Part shown: positions 17,818 through 24,250 of the stretch, piece after piece
How the letters are laid out: each line of letters opens with the position of its first letter
How positions within the stretch are numbered: position 1 is the stretch's first letter
Source: Kitasatospora sp. NBC_00315
Lineage (GTDB): Bacteria; Actinomycetota; Actinomycetes; Streptomycetales; Streptomycetaceae
Direction of reading: 5' to 3'
Length of the DNA: 64,000 nucleotides
Assembly: GCF_041435095.1 (NCBI RefSeq)
Contig: NZ_CP108025.1
Coordinates: forward strand, 868,001 to 932,000
Translations under genes and position numbers: made by a program
Notes under the pieces: model-generated
Seen by the model: only the letters and a program-made list of their open reading frames with translations
Databases searched by the model: none
What the model was told of the DNA's origin: nothing

Positions 17818-18492
17818 TCAGCGGGCGGCGCGGCGGCGGGCCCGGCGAACCAGCAGGGCGACGCCGATGACGACGGCGAGGGCGACGGCGACGGCGATCG
17901 CCCCGAGAACGGCGAACCCGGTCACGAGCCGACCGGAACCGGAGTCGCTGCCGGGCTCCTTCGGCGACCCGGACAGCGGAGCGGGCCCGGCAGTCACCGG
18001 CGGGCTCGCGGCCACCGGCGGGCTCGCGGCTTCGGCGGCCACCGGCGGGGCGGACGCCGGTGCTGCCACCGGCGGGGCGGACGGGGACGCCAGGCCGTCG
18101 ACCGTCAACTCGGCCGTGCCGCGCCCCAGAGCGGGGAAACCGGACTCGACGGTCACCGACCAGGTCCCGCTGGGCAGCGTCTCACGTGTGGTGAAGGTGG
18201 CCGGGGCGCCCTGGACCGCGAGCAGGCGCCAGGGGCCGAGCGCCCGCCCGTCGGCCGAGACCGCGCTGAGGGTGGCGGCGACCTCCTCGTCCACCGCGTC
18301 ACCGTCGTTCTCCCAGGTCGCGACCGCCTGGGGGTGGCCCTGCACCAAGCCCGTGATCCGGAAGTGGATCGTGTCGCCGTGCGCGTCGGCCGGCTCGGCC
18401 GGGCCGAGGGCCAGAGCGAGGCCGAGCAAGGGGACGAGGACGAGGCCGGCGATCCGGCGGACCGTGGTCAGGGCGCTGCGGGGGCTGTGCAT
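17818..18492 (-). CDS. Secreted, membrane-anchored protein with predicted N-terminal histidine
   Basis: 224 aa from the ATG at 18492, with GAGGAG upstream. A signal peptide (residues 1 to about 37) ends PADA, and cleavage there would leave mature HGDTIHFRITG, a His at position 1 as in CopC and copper oxygenases. A beta-rich domain follows (about 38-125), then a repetitive Pro/Ala/Ser linker (APPVAA and SPPVAA units) and a C-terminal membrane helix (VLGAIAVAVALAVVIGVALL) with an Arg-rich cytoplasmic tail. I do not recognise a named family. The architecture suggests an extracytoplasmic metal or ligand binder tethered to the membrane. It is convergent with the thiamine enzyme gene, only 32 bp apart. 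Confidence 0.75.
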   Translation of the reverse strand: MHSPRSALTTVRRIAGLVLVPLLGLALALGPAEPADAHGDTIHFRITGLVQGHPQAVATWENDGDAVDEEVAATLSAVSADGRALGPWRLLAVQGAPATFTTRETLPSGTWSVTVESGFPALGRGTAELTVDGLASPSAPPVAAPASAPPVAAEAASPPVAASPPVTAGPAPLSGSPKEPGSDSGSGRLVTGFAVLGAIAVAVALAVVIGVALLVRRARRRAAR

Positions 18493-18701: not shown

Positions 18702-20936
18702 TCAGGAGGCCGGCTGGACGGTCCAGTTCTGGTAGCCCTGGCTGTCGGGCCGCTGGAGCTCCAGCAGTCGGCCGCCGTAGTACCAGCGGCTGCTGACGCC
18801 GAGGACGAGCGGACCACCGTCGGCCGTCAGCGTGTAGCCGCTGTCGGCGGCGGTCAGCTTCCATCGCTGGTCCGCCGAGGCGGGATCGCACGACTGCTGC
18901 ATCACGTACTGGCCGGGCAGCGCCCGGCCGCCGATCTGGAGGCACTTGCCGGACAACGCGGACCTCACCCGGAGGAAACCGTTGCCCGCGTCGTCGAAGA
19001 GCCACCGCTGGTTGGCGTACCCGGTGCGCTGGTAACCGATCAGTACGGCGCCGTCGCCGAGCGAGCTGCCCCACATGTCGGCCGACTGGCCGGTCAGGCT
19101 GTTGAGCAGCAGGTATGCCTTTCCGGGGACGGTGGCACCGGTGGTACCGCCGGCCGCCAGGGTGCGGAACGAGGCGGCGCGGCCGGGCTTCGAGATGCTC
19201 CCGCCCTGGTCGTGCACGGCCACCGCGAAGGCGTACGTCGTGTCGGGGCGGAGCTGGACGACACGGACCACGGTCGAGCGGACCGTGGCCAGGGCCCGGC
19301 CGTTCAACCGGATCTCGTACAAGGCGGCCGAGGTAACGGCCGGCCAGCTCAGTACGGCGGAGTTCTGCGTGATCTGACTGACGGTCACCGCGGGTCCGGT
19401 GCCCGGCGTCGGTCCGGCGGTCGCCGTCGGGGTCGGGGTCGCCGTCGCGGTCGGGGAGGGCTTGGCGGTGGGCGTCGGGCTGGGCTTGGGCGACGCACTG
19501 GGGCTGGGACCGGCGCTCGTGCTGGGACCGGGGCTCGCGGTGGGACCGGGGTTGGGATCGGGGTTGTTGCCGTTACCCGCGATCAGGAACTGGTTGTTGG
19601 CGATGTTCCAGTGCGAGGTGAGGTAGGTGCCGGGCTTGGGCGCGGTGTTGAAGTAGTCGTCGTGGTTGCAGTCGAGGCGCTCGTCCTGCGAGCGCTCCGG
19701 GCAGACGGTCTGCATGGCCGGGTAGTACGGCGCGTCCGAGTAGCACATGATGTCCCACTCGTCGACGCAGTGGCCGGCCCGGCTGGTGTGCGGGGCACTG
19801 TTGTTCACCGCGCCCAGGTTGTGGCCGAGTTCGTGCGCGGCGGTCGATCCGCTCCAGCAGCCGGAGTCCGTCCGGCCGTACGAGGGGCCGAAGTTGCTGC
19901 GATTGTCCTGGCCGGGGCGCTCGTCGCCGTTGAACGTGCCGATGCCGCAGTAGACCTGGGCGTCAGCGAAGATCATGTACTTCCGGTCCTGCCGCTTGTA
20001 GCCCTGCGCGGCGAGGGCGTCGTTGGCGGCACCGAACTCGCCCAGTGCCGCGGCCGACACCTCGACGTCGAGCACCGACACCGTGCAGTCGGGGGCGGTG
20101 ACGTAGCGGACATGACGCACGCCCCCGGTCTCACCGGCGCTCGCGTTGTAGATCGCGTCGGTGTCGGCGGCCCACTTCTTGAAGGACGGCAGGTACTGAG
20201 CGAATCGGTCCTGGCCCGCTGCGTGCAGGTAAAGCACCTGCACCCGGTTGCCGCTCGTGCCGTCGCCGTCGCAGACCACCGTGCTGCCGGCCGGAGCCGC
20301 CGCCGGAGCGGCCGCCGTGCTGCCGGCCACCGCACCCGGCACGCCGGTCGCCGCCGGAGCCGCGGCTGCGGCTGGTGTGGTCCCCGTGGCGCCGAGCAGC
20401 GCGCCGGTCTGTGCGTCGAGCACCGGCGGCTCACCGGCCAGAAGGTCCGAGGTCGCGGGTGCCGGGACGTTTCCGTCACCCTGCAGGGCGGGGGCCGGAT
20501 CGGTCGCCGGGACCGCCGGCGGCGTGGTCCGGTGGACGTCCACGCCGGCCGGCGGTGCGTCCGGTCCGTGCGTACAGAGGGAGGCCTGGGAGACCCGGTA
20601 GACGCCGACGCACGGGTCCTCGGCGGGCGCCGGTGTCAGGCCCGTGTAGACCATGCCCCGCGCCGGTTCGTCCTTGGGTATGCCCGTCAGCGGTGTCGGG
20701 GCCTCGTTGTGCTGCGGCTTCGACGCGGGCGACGGAGCCGGGGAGTCGCCGTCGGCGTCCACCGGCGCGACCGCGCCGGCCTGCAGCGGCTGTCCTGCCG
20801 CGACCGTCGTCGGACGGTCGTCCATCGTGGTGTTGACACCCACCACGCCGGCCACCACGGCGGCGGCCACCGCGACGGCGGTGACCAGCAGCGTGCGGGG
20901 GCTGCGGCGTTTGGGGAGGGCGCGCCTTCGTGCCAT
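18702..20936 (-). CDS. Secreted zinc metalloprotease with fibronectin III and ricin-type domains
   Basis: 744 aa from the ATG at 20936 (AGGA upstream). Order: Arg-rich signal/anchor (about 12-36), Ala/Pro-rich pro-region to about 225, protease domain with HELGHNLGAVNNSAPH at about 380 and a Met-turn DIMCYSD, a Pro/Ser/Thr linker (about 480-540), a fibronectin III-like domain (VSQITQNSAVLSWPAV), and a ricin B-type trefoil at the end (ANQRWLFDD, ADQRWKLTA, YQNWTVQ) for sugar binding. Zinc ligands 1 and 2 are normal; the third metzincin position is Asn, with a His five residues later that may take over. Likely acts on extracellular polymers or cell-surface protein. Confidence 0.85.
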   Translation of the reverse strand: MARRRALPKRRSPRTLLVTAVAVAAAVVAGVVGVNTTMDDRPTTVAAGQPLQAGAVAPVDADGDSPAPSPASKPQHNEAPTPLTGIPKDEPARGMVYTGLTPAPAEDPCVGVYRVSQASLCTHGPDAPPAGVDVHRTTPPAVPATDPAPALQGDGNVPAPATSDLLAGEPPVLDAQTGALLGATGTTPAAAAAPAATGVPGAVAGSTAAAPAAAPAGSTVVCDGDGTSGNRVQVLYLHAAGQDRFAQYLPSFKKWAADTDAIYNASAGETGGVRHVRYVTAPDCTVSVLDVEVSAAALGEFGAANDALAAQGYKRQDRKYMIFADAQVYCGIGTFNGDERPGQDNRSNFGPSYGRTDSGCWSGSTAAHELGHNLGAVNNSAPHTSRAGHCVDEWDIMCYSDAPYYPAMQTVCPERSQDERLDCNHDDYFNTAPKPGTYLTSHWNIANNQFLIAGNGNNPDPNPGPTASPGPSTSAGPSPSASPKPSPTPTAKPSPTATATPTPTATAGPTPGTGPAVTVSQITQNSAVLSWPAVTSAALYEIRLNGRALATVRSTVVRVVQLRPDTTYAFAVAVHDQGGSISKPGRAASFRTLAAGGTTGATVPGKAYLLLNSLTGQSADMWGSSLGDGAVLIGYQRTGYANQRWLFDDAGNGFLRVRSALSGKCLQIGGRALPGQYVMQQSCDPASADQRWKLTAADSGYTLTADGGPLVLGVSSRWYYGGRLLELQRPDSQGYQNWTVQPAS

Positions 20937-21215: not shown

Positions 21216-22874
21216 TCAGCGGGCGGTACCGAAGTCCTGCGTCCACCAGGGCCCACCGGGGCCGAAGTGGACACCGACGCCGATGTCCTTGAACGCGCAG
21301 TTGAGGATGTTCGCCCGGTGGTCCGGAGCATTCATCAGTTCGGCCACCACCACGGCCGCGTCATCCCGGCCGTAGCCGATGTTCTCGGCATAGGTGGTCC
21401 ACCGGTAGCCGGTGGCGGTGATCCGGGCCGGGGCGGTGATGCCGTCCGGGTCGGTGTGGCCGAAGTAGCCGCGCACCGCCATGTCGTCGGCGTGCGTCTG
21501 GGCGGCGGTACGAAGCCGCGGGTCGGTCCGCAGCGGAGCGCACCCCTGCTTCGTCCGCTCGCTGTTGAGCAGATCGACGACCTCTCGCTCGAACGGGGAG
21601 AGCAGGACGGCGGGGACGGCGGGACCGGTCCGGGCGGCGGACGCCCCGGGCGAGACCGACGGGCGCGGTGAGGGTGAACCCGACGCGGGCGACTGCCTCT
21701 GGGGCCGTGGGGGCGGCGACAGCGTCGGTGTCGCCGACGGCCCGTCCGGGGCGGTGACCGAGGGCGTGGCCAGGACGCTCGGGGGCATCGACGGCGGCAC
21801 GCCGGTGATCCGCACCGGAACCGGCGCCACCGCCGGGACGGAGACGGCCCGGGCCTCGTCCGGTCGCGGCGCGTCGGGCATCGCGCAGGTGAGGACGGCA
21901 ACGGCCGCGACCGCGGCGATGCTTCCGACCATCGCGGTCGTGCGCGGGATCCGCCGAAGCGGTCGCCCCGGGTGCGGCCCCACTGCCCCGCCGCCCCCCG
22001 GAACCGCGGGCGGGACAGCGGGCGGAGCGGCGGACGGAGCAGCGGGTGGGACAGAAGGTGGGACAGAAGGTGGAGCAGCGGGCGGGACGGTGGCGGCGCC
22101 CGAGACGGCCAGGTGATCCGGCACCGGGACGAAGGCCAGTCCGGCCAGCAGCCCCTCGGCGGGCACCAGACCGTCGCGGTGGCCGCCGCAGTCCACGCAG
22201 TCGCGGGCGTGACGGGCTATCCGCTTGCGCCAGAGCGGGCCCGGCGTGCCGTCCCAGCCCGCCGTCAGTGTCTCCAACTCCGCACAGGCCGACGCCGCCG
22301 ACAGTGCGCGCACCACCACCCGGGCGAGCTCCAGCTGCGTCTTCATCCGCTGCACCCGGACGGTCACGTGCTGCTGCGGTTGCTCCAGGGCCAGGGCCAC
22401 GTCCGCCCGGGTGAGCTCGCCGGCGGCCTCCAGCCACCAGAGTGCGAGCAGGTCACGGTCACCCTCGTCCAGCCAACGGGTCGCCACGGTCACCTCGCGG
22501 CGCTGACCCGAGAGACCGAGCCGGACGATGGTCAGGCCGACGAAGTCGGCGCCCGGGTCGGCCACCTCCCGAGCCTCCTGCAGCCCGTCACAGAGCGCTG
22601 CCGAGCGGTGCGCCCGCTGGTGACGACGTACCTCGTTCATCGCTATCGCCACCAGCCAGGAGCGGTAGCGGGTCGCGTCCCGCAGCCCGGCCAGTCCGTC
22701 GACGACCCGCAGCATGGTCTCCTGCACGACGTCGTCGACGTCGGAGTTCCCGCTCAGCGCGCGACCGACGATGTTGTAGACCAGGGGCAGGCACTCCGCG
22801 ATCAGGGCACCCTGTGCCCGCTCGTCCCCGGCCTGCGCTGCCGCGACCATGTCGGTCCCGTTTGCACTGTTCAC
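21216..22874 (-). CDS. One-chain ECF sigma factor / ZAS anti-sigma / membrane / CAP-domain protein
   Basis: 552 aa from the GTG at 22874; GGGGAGAG lies upstream and an in-frame ATG at 22850 is an alternative. Residues 8-88 are a sigma region 2 (SDVDDVVQETMLRVVDGL, then YRSWLVAIAMNEVRRHQR). Residues about 133-190 are sigma region 4. A ZAS-type zinc motif follows: C197, H222, C226, C229 (C-x24-H-x3-C-x2-C). Then a Pro/Ala linker, one membrane helix (about 314-331, positive side before it, so the C-terminus lies outside), a second Pro/Ser linker, and an extracellular CAP/SCP domain at 425-552 with RGYFGHTDPDG, TTYAENIGYG and MNAPDHRANIL. It should keep a sigma factor at the membrane until an outside signal or cleavage frees it. 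No separate anti-sigma gene is adjacent. Confidence 0.9.
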   Translation of the reverse strand: MNSANGTDMVAAAQAGDERAQGALIAECLPLVYNIVGRALSGNSDVDDVVQETMLRVVDGLAGLRDATRYRSWLVAIAMNEVRRHQRAHRSAALCDGLQEAREVADPGADFVGLTIVRLGLSGQRREVTVATRWLDEGDRDLLALWWLEAAGELTRADVALALEQPQQHVTVRVQRMKTQLELARVVVRALSAASACAELETLTAGWDGTPGPLWRKRIARHARDCVDCGGHRDGLVPAEGLLAGLAFVPVPDHLAVSGAATVPPAAPPSVPPSVPPAAPSAAPPAVPPAVPGGGGAVGPHPGRPLRRIPRTTAMVGSIAAVAAVAVLTCAMPDAPRPDEARAVSVPAVAPVPVRITGVPPSMPPSVLATPSVTAPDGPSATPTLSPPPRPQRQSPASGSPSPRPSVSPGASAARTGPAVPAVLLSPFEREVVDLLNSERTKQGCAPLRTDPRLRTAAQTHADDMAVRGYFGHTDPDGITAPARITATGYRWTTYAENIGYGRDDAAVVVAELMNAPDHRANILNCAFKDIGVGVHFGPGGPWWTQDFGTAR

Positions 22875-23015
22875 CTGCGTCCGCTCTCCCCGTGGGCCTG
22901 CCCGAAAAATGCTCCGACACCTAGGAGACCTGCGGCCCGCACCGCGATAACAGAAATCCGGGACGAGTTTTTCGGGGGGAGTCGTCGCCCCGGAACCGTC
23001 GGTCGGCGCAACGCG

Positions 23016-23169: not shown

Positions 23170-23919
23170 TCAGACGGAGAGCGTCTGGCCCGGGTAGATC
23201 AGGTCGGCGTTGCCGCCGATGACCTGGGCGTTCTTCGCCTCAAGCTTCGACACCGAGGTGCCGAACTTCGCGGCGATCTCGCCCAGGGTGTCACCGCTCT
23301 TGACGGTGTAGCTGCTGCCCTTGGCGCCGGCGTGCTGACCGGCGGACTTCCAGGACTTCACGGCGTCCGTGGAGGTCGACTGCTTCGAGTCGGCCTTGGG
23401 GGAGCTGTTGGTGGCGGCCGTGTCGTTCGAGGACGAGGTGGCCGGCTTGGCGGGCTTCGCGGCCGGGGCGGCGGCGGGAGTGCTGCTGGTCGCGGCCGAG
23501 GAACCGGTGTCCACCGAGGCGGGGGCGCCACCGGCGGTCAGGCCGGCCTTGACGGAGCAGACGGGCCAGGCGCCGGGGCCCTGCGAGGCGAGGACCTTCT
23601 CAGCGATGGCGATCTGCTGCGCCTTGGTGGCCTGGTTGGCCTGCGGGGCGAACGCGGTGCCGCCGTAGGCGGCCCAGGTGCTGGAGGTGAACTGCAGGCC
23701 GCCGTAGAAGCCGTTGCCGGAGTCGATGCTCCAGTTGCCCGTGCTCTCGCACTGCGCGACCTTGTCCCAGGTCGAGACCGAGGCGGCGGAGGCCGAGTTG
23801 GCCGTGACGAGGCCGGCCACCGGCAGGGTCACGACGGCCCCGCCGATCAGGGCCATCCGCACGCGGTTGCGCTTGGTGGCGGTCTTGGTGGCAGCGGCGG
23901 TCTCGTTACGGAAGGTCAT
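23170..23919 (-). CDS. Resuscitation-promoting factor-like muralytic protein with LysM
   Basis: 249 aa from the ATG at 23919, with GAGAGGA upstream. Signal peptide about 1-46 (MALIGGAVVTLPVAGLVTA, ending ASA). The Rpf transglycosylase-like domain follows: VAQCESTGNW with the catalytic Glu, then GFYGGLQFTSSTWAAYGG and AWPVC closing the disulfide. A Ser/Ala/Pro/Lys-rich spacer (about 125-195) leads to a C-terminal LysM domain (YTVKSGDTLGEIAAKFGTS to YPGQTLSV) that binds peptidoglycan. Such proteins cleave the cell wall during spore germination and regrowth. A long structured leader precedes it, consistent with RNA-level control. Confidence 0.93.
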   Translation of the reverse strand: MTFRNETAAATKTATKRNRVRMALIGGAVVTLPVAGLVTANSASAASVSTWDKVAQCESTGNWSIDSGNGFYGGLQFTSSTWAAYGGTAFAPQANQATKAQQIAIAEKVLASQGPGAWPVCSVKAGLTAGGAPASVDTGSSAATSSTPAAAPAAKPAKPATSSSNDTAATNSSPKADSKQSTSTDAVKSWKSAGQHAGAKGSSYTVKSGDTLGEIAAKFGTSVSKLEAKNAQVIGGNADLIYPGQTLSV

Positions 23920-24250
23920 GGAGGTCCTCTCGTCAGCCCCGGGCAGGCATGCGGAAGCAGAGCCCCGAAGGGCCTGTTCGTCACTCGCCTCACTCGATGA
24001 GCGGCTGGACGCGCAGGATCGCGTCACGCCGCACCGGCTCCCCTCCGCACACCGTGGACCACGTCGAAGCGGTCTCTCCGGTGGGCACGTCCGGGGCCGG
24101 CGAACCGGCGGGACGTGCGGTGGGGGTGAACCCGGGTGGTGCTCGATGCACCGACGAGAACGAAGCTACGGGCCCCGGAGGTTTGCTTCAAGCAATCAGG
24201 CGTTCGCCCAGGTCAGCCGATGGTTACCCGGAGTATTGATCAAGGAATTA
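23920..24250 (-). promoter_or_regulatory. Long structured 5' leader of the Rpf-LysM gene
   Basis: About 330 bases before the Rpf ATG contain no ORF but several hairpins. The best is at 24085-24118: GCACGTCC arms enclosing a GCCGG-TTCG-CCGGC hairpin with a UUCG tetraloop. A small GGTGC/GCACC stem lies near 24139-24153. Cell-wall hydrolase genes of streptomycetes are often under a cyclic di-AMP riboswitch, but I could not align the conserved core of that class with confidence. Upstream sequence near 24230-24300 is AT-rich and is a likely promoter. Confidence 0.45.

Follow-up and report, generated by a model that had tools for sequence, protein, structure and literature searches.

The DNA analysed here, a stretch of 64,000 nucleotides called the window below, carries on its minus strand a gene in which an ECF sigma factor is joined to an outer CAP/SCP domain (the sigma-CAP protein). 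The gene with its parts, the promoter-like dyad before it and two genes after it are arranged as follows.

22924–22952, minus strand: predicted autoregulatory promoter TGTTATC-N15-GGTCTCC, 14/14 match, 49 bp before the start codon.
21216–22874, minus strand: sigma-(Cys/His motif)-membrane segment-CAP fusion gene, 552 aa, GTG start.
22605–22805, minus strand: sigma region 2 (residues 24–90); Pfam Sigma70_r2 2.9e-11, fold match to 4lup.
22299–22508, minus strand: sigma region 4 with helix-turn-helix (residues ~123–192); TIGR02937 over 20–182, AF2 helices with pLDDT 85–96.
22188–22286, minus strand: putative zinc anti-sigma motif C197-x24-H222-x3-C226-x2-C229; ligands invariant, zf-HC2 unmatched.
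21879–21935, minus strand: predicted single membrane segment (residues 314–332), N-in/C-out, from hydropathy and positive-inside bias.
21603–21878, minus strand: Pro/Ser/Thr-rich linker, predicted from sequence to span the wall; pLDDT mostly <55.
21219–21596, minus strand: CAP/SCP ectodomain (residues 427–552) with conserved Cys445 and Cys526; Pfam, alignment and fold.
18702–20936, minus strand: secreted reprolysin-like metalloprotease with fn3 and ricin-B lectin, 744 aa, predicted to be co-regulated.
17818–18492, minus strand: small secreted/membrane protein, 224 aa, third gene of the cluster, kept in relatives.

The N-terminus of the sigma-CAP protein contains regions 2 and 4 only and scores above the cut-off of the sigma70-ECF profile TIGR02937 (53.1 bits against 42.9), as expected of an ECF sigma factor. 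In fold comparisons, its region 2 resembles that of sigma-E (4lup; Z 14.0, rmsd 1.9) and residues 1–189 resemble sigma-E 1or7_A (Z 14.5). At the other end, residues 433–548 match the CAP family PF00188 at 1.4e-20, the model of the ectodomain is close to solved CAP structures (4ifa, Z 21.5; 4d53, Z 20.6), and H473, E497 and H519 are at least 90% conserved in the alignment of relatives. The AF2 model has pLDDT of about 80–98 for most of the sigma, motif and CAP regions and <50 for the linker and membrane segment, where the helix is not formed. The domain order, motif spacing and single polypeptide given in the initial annotation were confirmed by the ORF, the Pfam and TIGR02937 matches and the cysteine positions. 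The frame is open as far as 23072, but an alternative start there was rejected because the conserved dyad lies inside this extension; the position of the dyad, 49 bp before the GTG, favours the start at 22874.

A frameshift joining two genes, raised as what would overturn that annotation, is ruled out by approximately 130 relatives that keep the sigma-motif core in one frame. In public genomes we found 80 loci with cores (residues 1–245) 59–86% identical to that of the sigma-CAP protein; among the relatives, core identity is mostly 50–86%. Together with sampled genomes of the same taxonomic family, the public-genome loci gave 148 sequences, 133 of which entered the tree. Of 61 Streptomycetaceae genomes sampled, 46 encode a member of the fused sigma family. 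It was not seen outside the taxonomic family in a thinner sample of the phylum, and a search of public genomes found single members in Micromonospora, Catenulispora and Actinocrinis. In the core tree, the sigma-CAP protein groups with that of Kitasatospora indigofera (L009; support 100). The host genome encodes two further members: a second sigma-CAP protein, whose gene adjoins a convergent secreted CAP gene, and a sigma-beta-helix version (L163/L179; G000:C1 7703289-7704032, minus strand) with LPATG near its C-terminus and a promoter that matches the dyad poorly. At L037:7932-9398, transposase-like sequence continues the frame of a sigma core, which probably reflects an insertion or a contig-end artefact.

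Directly after the sigma domains, C197, H222, C226 and C229 form an Hx3Cx2C motif with an upstream cysteine, spaced C-x24-H-x3-C-x2-C, which had been annotated as a zinc anti-sigma (ZAS) motif. The spacing stood, and the four ligands are invariant in aligned relatives (n = 44 and n = 65), with a C-x20-30-H-x3-C-x2-C motif in all 148 collected sequences. The profiles did not bear the assignment out: zf-HC2 gave no match to the sigma-CAP motif region at E ≤ 10 in Pfam, while an ECF52-like control matched at 3.1e-6, and a profile search against anti-sigma structures in the PDB also left the region without a match. From motif, position and invariance we infer that the region acts as an anti-sigma domain; because it matches neither zf-HC2 nor a solved anti-sigma factor by profile, the term is used here in that inferred sense.

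Residues 314–332 form a hydrophobic segment (mean hydropathy 2.2) with a basic N-side. Across the family, the top-scoring stretch of 19 residues from motif to linker has a hydropathy of 1.6 or more in 120 of 136 members. In 127 of the 136 the N-side of this stretch is the more basic one, and in one member the C-side is. Such a charge bias is as expected for the predicted N-in/C-out topology. Two cysteines in the CAP domain are kept by 73 of 76 CAP-class members and, as a pair, would suit a disulfide outside the cell.

The presence of a CAP domain, as first annotated, holds for this protein, but CAP turned out to be one of several ectodomains in a family that also shares a promoter-like dyad. 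On the same core, Pfam identifies CAP, Glyco_hydro_cc (GH128-like), right-handed beta-helix and AbfB domains; a GH99-like ectodomain scores just under the Pfam cut-off, and one class carries an unnamed ectodomain. Mapped onto the core tree, the ectodomain labels cluster strongly and require at least 8–11 changes. In L019, L021, L150 and L155, the CAP ectodomain has lost most conserved CAP residues while the sigma core is intact. Two sigma-beta-helix members (L166:374-3160 and L167:303-3197) end in LAQTG or LAHTG, a hydrophobic stretch and a basic tail. This reads like a sortase signal, by which these sigma factors would possibly be fixed covalently to the wall.

The dyad emerged when spaced words in the regions preceding the sigma genes were counted without bias; one pattern dominated, TGTTATC-N15/16-SRTCTCC, usually 40–100 bp before the core. 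At least 12 of its 14 positions are matched upstream of 69 of 79 CAP, all 15 CAP2 and 12 of 16 GH128-like sigma genes, and in 1 of 435 shuffled controls. No clear dyad precedes the GH99, AbfB and degenerate-CAP sigma genes or part of those with the unnamed ectodomain. Variants of the dyad track the sigma clades, with TGTGACC in the L030/L049/L135/L151/L154/L157 group and CGTTATC in many GH128-like members. The site at 22924–22952 scores 26.9 bits, the next best in the window 13.1. When the 8.3-Mb host genome was scanned by pattern rather than by matrix, the exact core dyad was found three times: at the sigma-CAP gene, at its paralogue and at a site reading TTATCCACA, which we take to be a DnaA box. 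Among the one-mismatch sites inspected, the well-placed one lies 41 bp ahead of the secreted CAP gene next to the paralogue. Genomes with the core average 3.4 dyads, compared to 1.3 in 15 genomes without it (p 0.0003; reversed-pattern control, 0.7), an excess due partly to the sigma genes' own promoters. We discounted matches resembling DnaA boxes or palindromes (GAGAGCGCTCTCC) and set aside a conserved dyad-like Kitasatospora site (G014 C1:590703 and five others) that had no plausible downstream gene start. Conserved sites like GTTATACCA...GAGAGCGCTCTCC, palindromic at one end, occur at G006 C2:95236, G032 C47:608441, G043 C58:23821, G047 C5:191301, G059 C62:182801, G021 C194:59342 and G025 C1:1431150; they are probably the operator of another regulator.

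In the window, the metalloprotease gene directly follows the sigma-CAP gene, starting 279 bp downstream of it, and has no dyad of its own; because of this distance, read-through is assumed. The sigma, metalloprotease and small third gene stand together, as in the window, in L009, L019, L021, L031 and L035, where the metalloprotease gene after the sigma gene likewise lacks its own dyad (best score 4). Metalloprotease orthologues located away from the sigma gene, 59–61% identical over full length, have their own dyad in four genomes, where they were found by dyad search. This association with the sigma factor, by position or by an own dyad, is the strongest evidence that the metalloprotease belongs to the regulon. 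A gene for an Rpf-type transglycosylase with LysM lies upstream of the sigma-CAP gene (23170–24027, minus strand), as it also does in L009 but not generally; a link to it was dropped, since only 4 of the 80 loci have similar genes in their flanks.

Among secreted CAP genes beside sigma-CAP, the dyad precedes those at L225, L231, L233, L219, L238, L239, L014, L050 and L039. In the flanks of the 80 relatives, sites of at least 19 bits are found at sigma genes, except for those before stand-alone CAP genes (L014, L050, L039) and a papain-like protease (L017, L018); of the eight stand-alone CAP genes that lie uncut in these flanks, only three have the dyad. The dyad precedes thaumatin-like genes at five sites in four genomes, all of which carry a GH128-like sigma factor. 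At L251, the dyad precedes a gene for a stand-alone wall-anchor-type protein that shares 46% identity with the unnamed ectodomain (E 9e-43), in a genome that encodes a sigma factor with this ectodomain. A large secreted protein with its own dyad is encoded directly 3′ of unnamed-ectodomain sigma genes at L246:1996-4026, L247 and L248, that of L246 ending in a LAQTG-like anchor. In Kitasatospora relatives, YtkA-like secreted proteins (L218, L221, L228) and thioredoxin-like lipoproteins (L223, L232) also have the dyad and are candidate members of the regulon.

Fused sigma/anti-sigma proteins were already said by the initial annotation to occur in actinobacteria, correctly so, as ECF52 and ECF53. 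These actinobacterial groups have an ECF sigma factor, a zinc-finger-like anti-sigma, a membrane helix and an extracytoplasmic domain in one chain, as the sigma-CAP protein does, and the ectodomains reported for them include glycoside hydrolase (GH) and carbohydrate-binding types (PMC8999054, PMC10766802). The ECF53 order of sigma, ZAS, membrane segment and GH/CBM is found in the sisters of the sigma-CAP protein with GH128-like, GH99-like and AbfB ectodomains (cf. PMC10766802), and by its architecture the core is likely ECF53, the group whose reference sequence is WP_030276194.1. BLAST of the sigma-CAP protein against the host's own NPCBM-bearing ECF52-like protein gave no significant similarity; by this sequence comparison, the core is not ECF52. 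The ECF52 protein SCO4117 of Streptomyces coelicolor shares the fused architecture and the Pro-rich stalk, and for it proteolytic release has been proposed and positive autoregulation suggested (PMC5826349). It differs from the sigma-CAP protein in sigma family by sequence, as assessed through the host's ECF52-like protein, in its carbohydrate-binding ectodomain and in its published motif, CSGYN-17bp-SRHA, which is unlike the dyad (PMC5826349). In Clostridium thermocellum, the GH10 domain of RsgI6 is 57% identical to Xyn10D, SigI6 activates the Xyn10D promoter, and the system is autoregulated (PMC4711584). SigI/RsgI thus resembles the sigma-CAP family in that the ectodomain is like the secreted enzymes under control (PMC4711584), but uses separate genes for sigma and anti-sigma, other sigma and anti-sigma families and carbohydrate sensors, whereas the sigma-CAP protein and its relatives are single polypeptides. 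IutY of Pseudomonas putida (ECF243) is a sigma factor fused to a membrane anti-sigma and released by Prc and RseP (PMC8999054); unlike the sigma-CAP protein, it serves Gram-negative siderophore surface signalling, and no CAP domain or zinc motif is described for it there. For ECF52 and ECF53, we found no description of a CAP ectodomain, a common promoter or a regulon matched to the ectodomain in the searchable literature. Nor did we find a studied CAP version there, in line with the initial annotation, although classification papers may mention one. As far as that literature goes, the CAP ectodomain, the common dyad and the pairing of ectodomain and target are new for fused sigma factors.

Altogether, these results make it probable that the sigma-CAP protein is a one-component, autoregulated transmembrane ECF sigma factor whose ectodomain, across the family, often mirrors a secreted protein under its control. 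Binding of RNA polymerase and DNA would fall to residues 1–190, which the Cys/His region (~195–245) would keep inactive at the membrane, and one helix with the Pro-rich stalk would display CAP outside the cell. The ectodomain may bind a ligand or itself be cleaved, setting the N-terminal part free, probably by regulated, stepwise proteolysis; release of this kind is plausible by analogy with IutY and with what is proposed for SCO4117. The free sigma factor, recognizing TGTTATC-N15/16-SRTCTCC as sequence evidence suggests, is predicted to drive its own gene with read-through into the metalloprotease and small secreted protein genes, and to activate secreted CAP genes where the dyad is present. 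During evolution, ectodomains are swapped on a core that persists, usually together with its promoter, so that an ectodomain is often related, by homology or in function, to a secreted protein whose gene has the same dyad.

A broader reading, which we offer tentatively, is of a modular family in which a constant sigma-inhibitor core reads a constant promoter and each of the swapped outer domains mirrors the secreted proteins under its control. Taken together, the outer domains and targets comprise CAP/PR-1-like, GH128-like beta-1,3-glucanase, thaumatin-like and secreted protease types, which would suggest both sensing of and attack on foreign surfaces, such as those of fungi or oomycetes. Sterol binding is known from other CAP proteins, and plant PR-1 is active against oomycetes that are auxotrophic for sterols (PMC10189770), which makes a sterol or other foreign-surface ligand a reasonable first candidate, not a conclusion.

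CAP might instead be the output, a membrane-displayed effector with a built-in autoregulator, the sigma factor mainly controlling itself and sibling CAP proteins. In the host genome, the only promoter-placed near-perfect dyads indeed precede the two sigma-CAP genes and the secreted CAP gene. We regard this as unlikely, since the dyad is shared by sigma genes with other ectodomains and is found as well at metalloprotease, papain-like protease and thaumatin genes, and the degenerate-looking ectodomains of L019, L021 and L150 fit binding or sensing better than activity. Still less probable is a cytoplasmic signal, with the Cys/His motif as a redox or zinc sensor of the RsrA/ChrR kind and the ectodomain serving only as a wall anchor. 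The invariance of all four ligands and the LAxTG-like endings of two beta-helix members would be consistent with it, but ectodomain classes are kept within clades and paired with matching targets, and zinc motifs of membrane-bound anti-sigma domains may be structural (PMC7406223). Equally doubtful is that the dyad serves another regulator and the fused sigma factor has a different target: the link is purely a correlation and the 15 core-less genomes still contain dyads, yet the dyad mostly lies 40–100 bp ahead of sigma genes, in variants that go with the sigma clades.

To our knowledge, fused sigma/anti-sigma receptors are almost unstudied and few functions are known for bacterial CAP domains; a CAP domain wired to transcription would therefore offer a direct readout of what it recognizes. 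For the autoregulated receptor favoured here, sequence predicts not only the promoter but also the probable targets and a series of naturally swapped sensors, so that tests from signal to release become simple. If this reading is true, the core would be a ready-made chassis with which new outer sensors could be coupled to one promoter.
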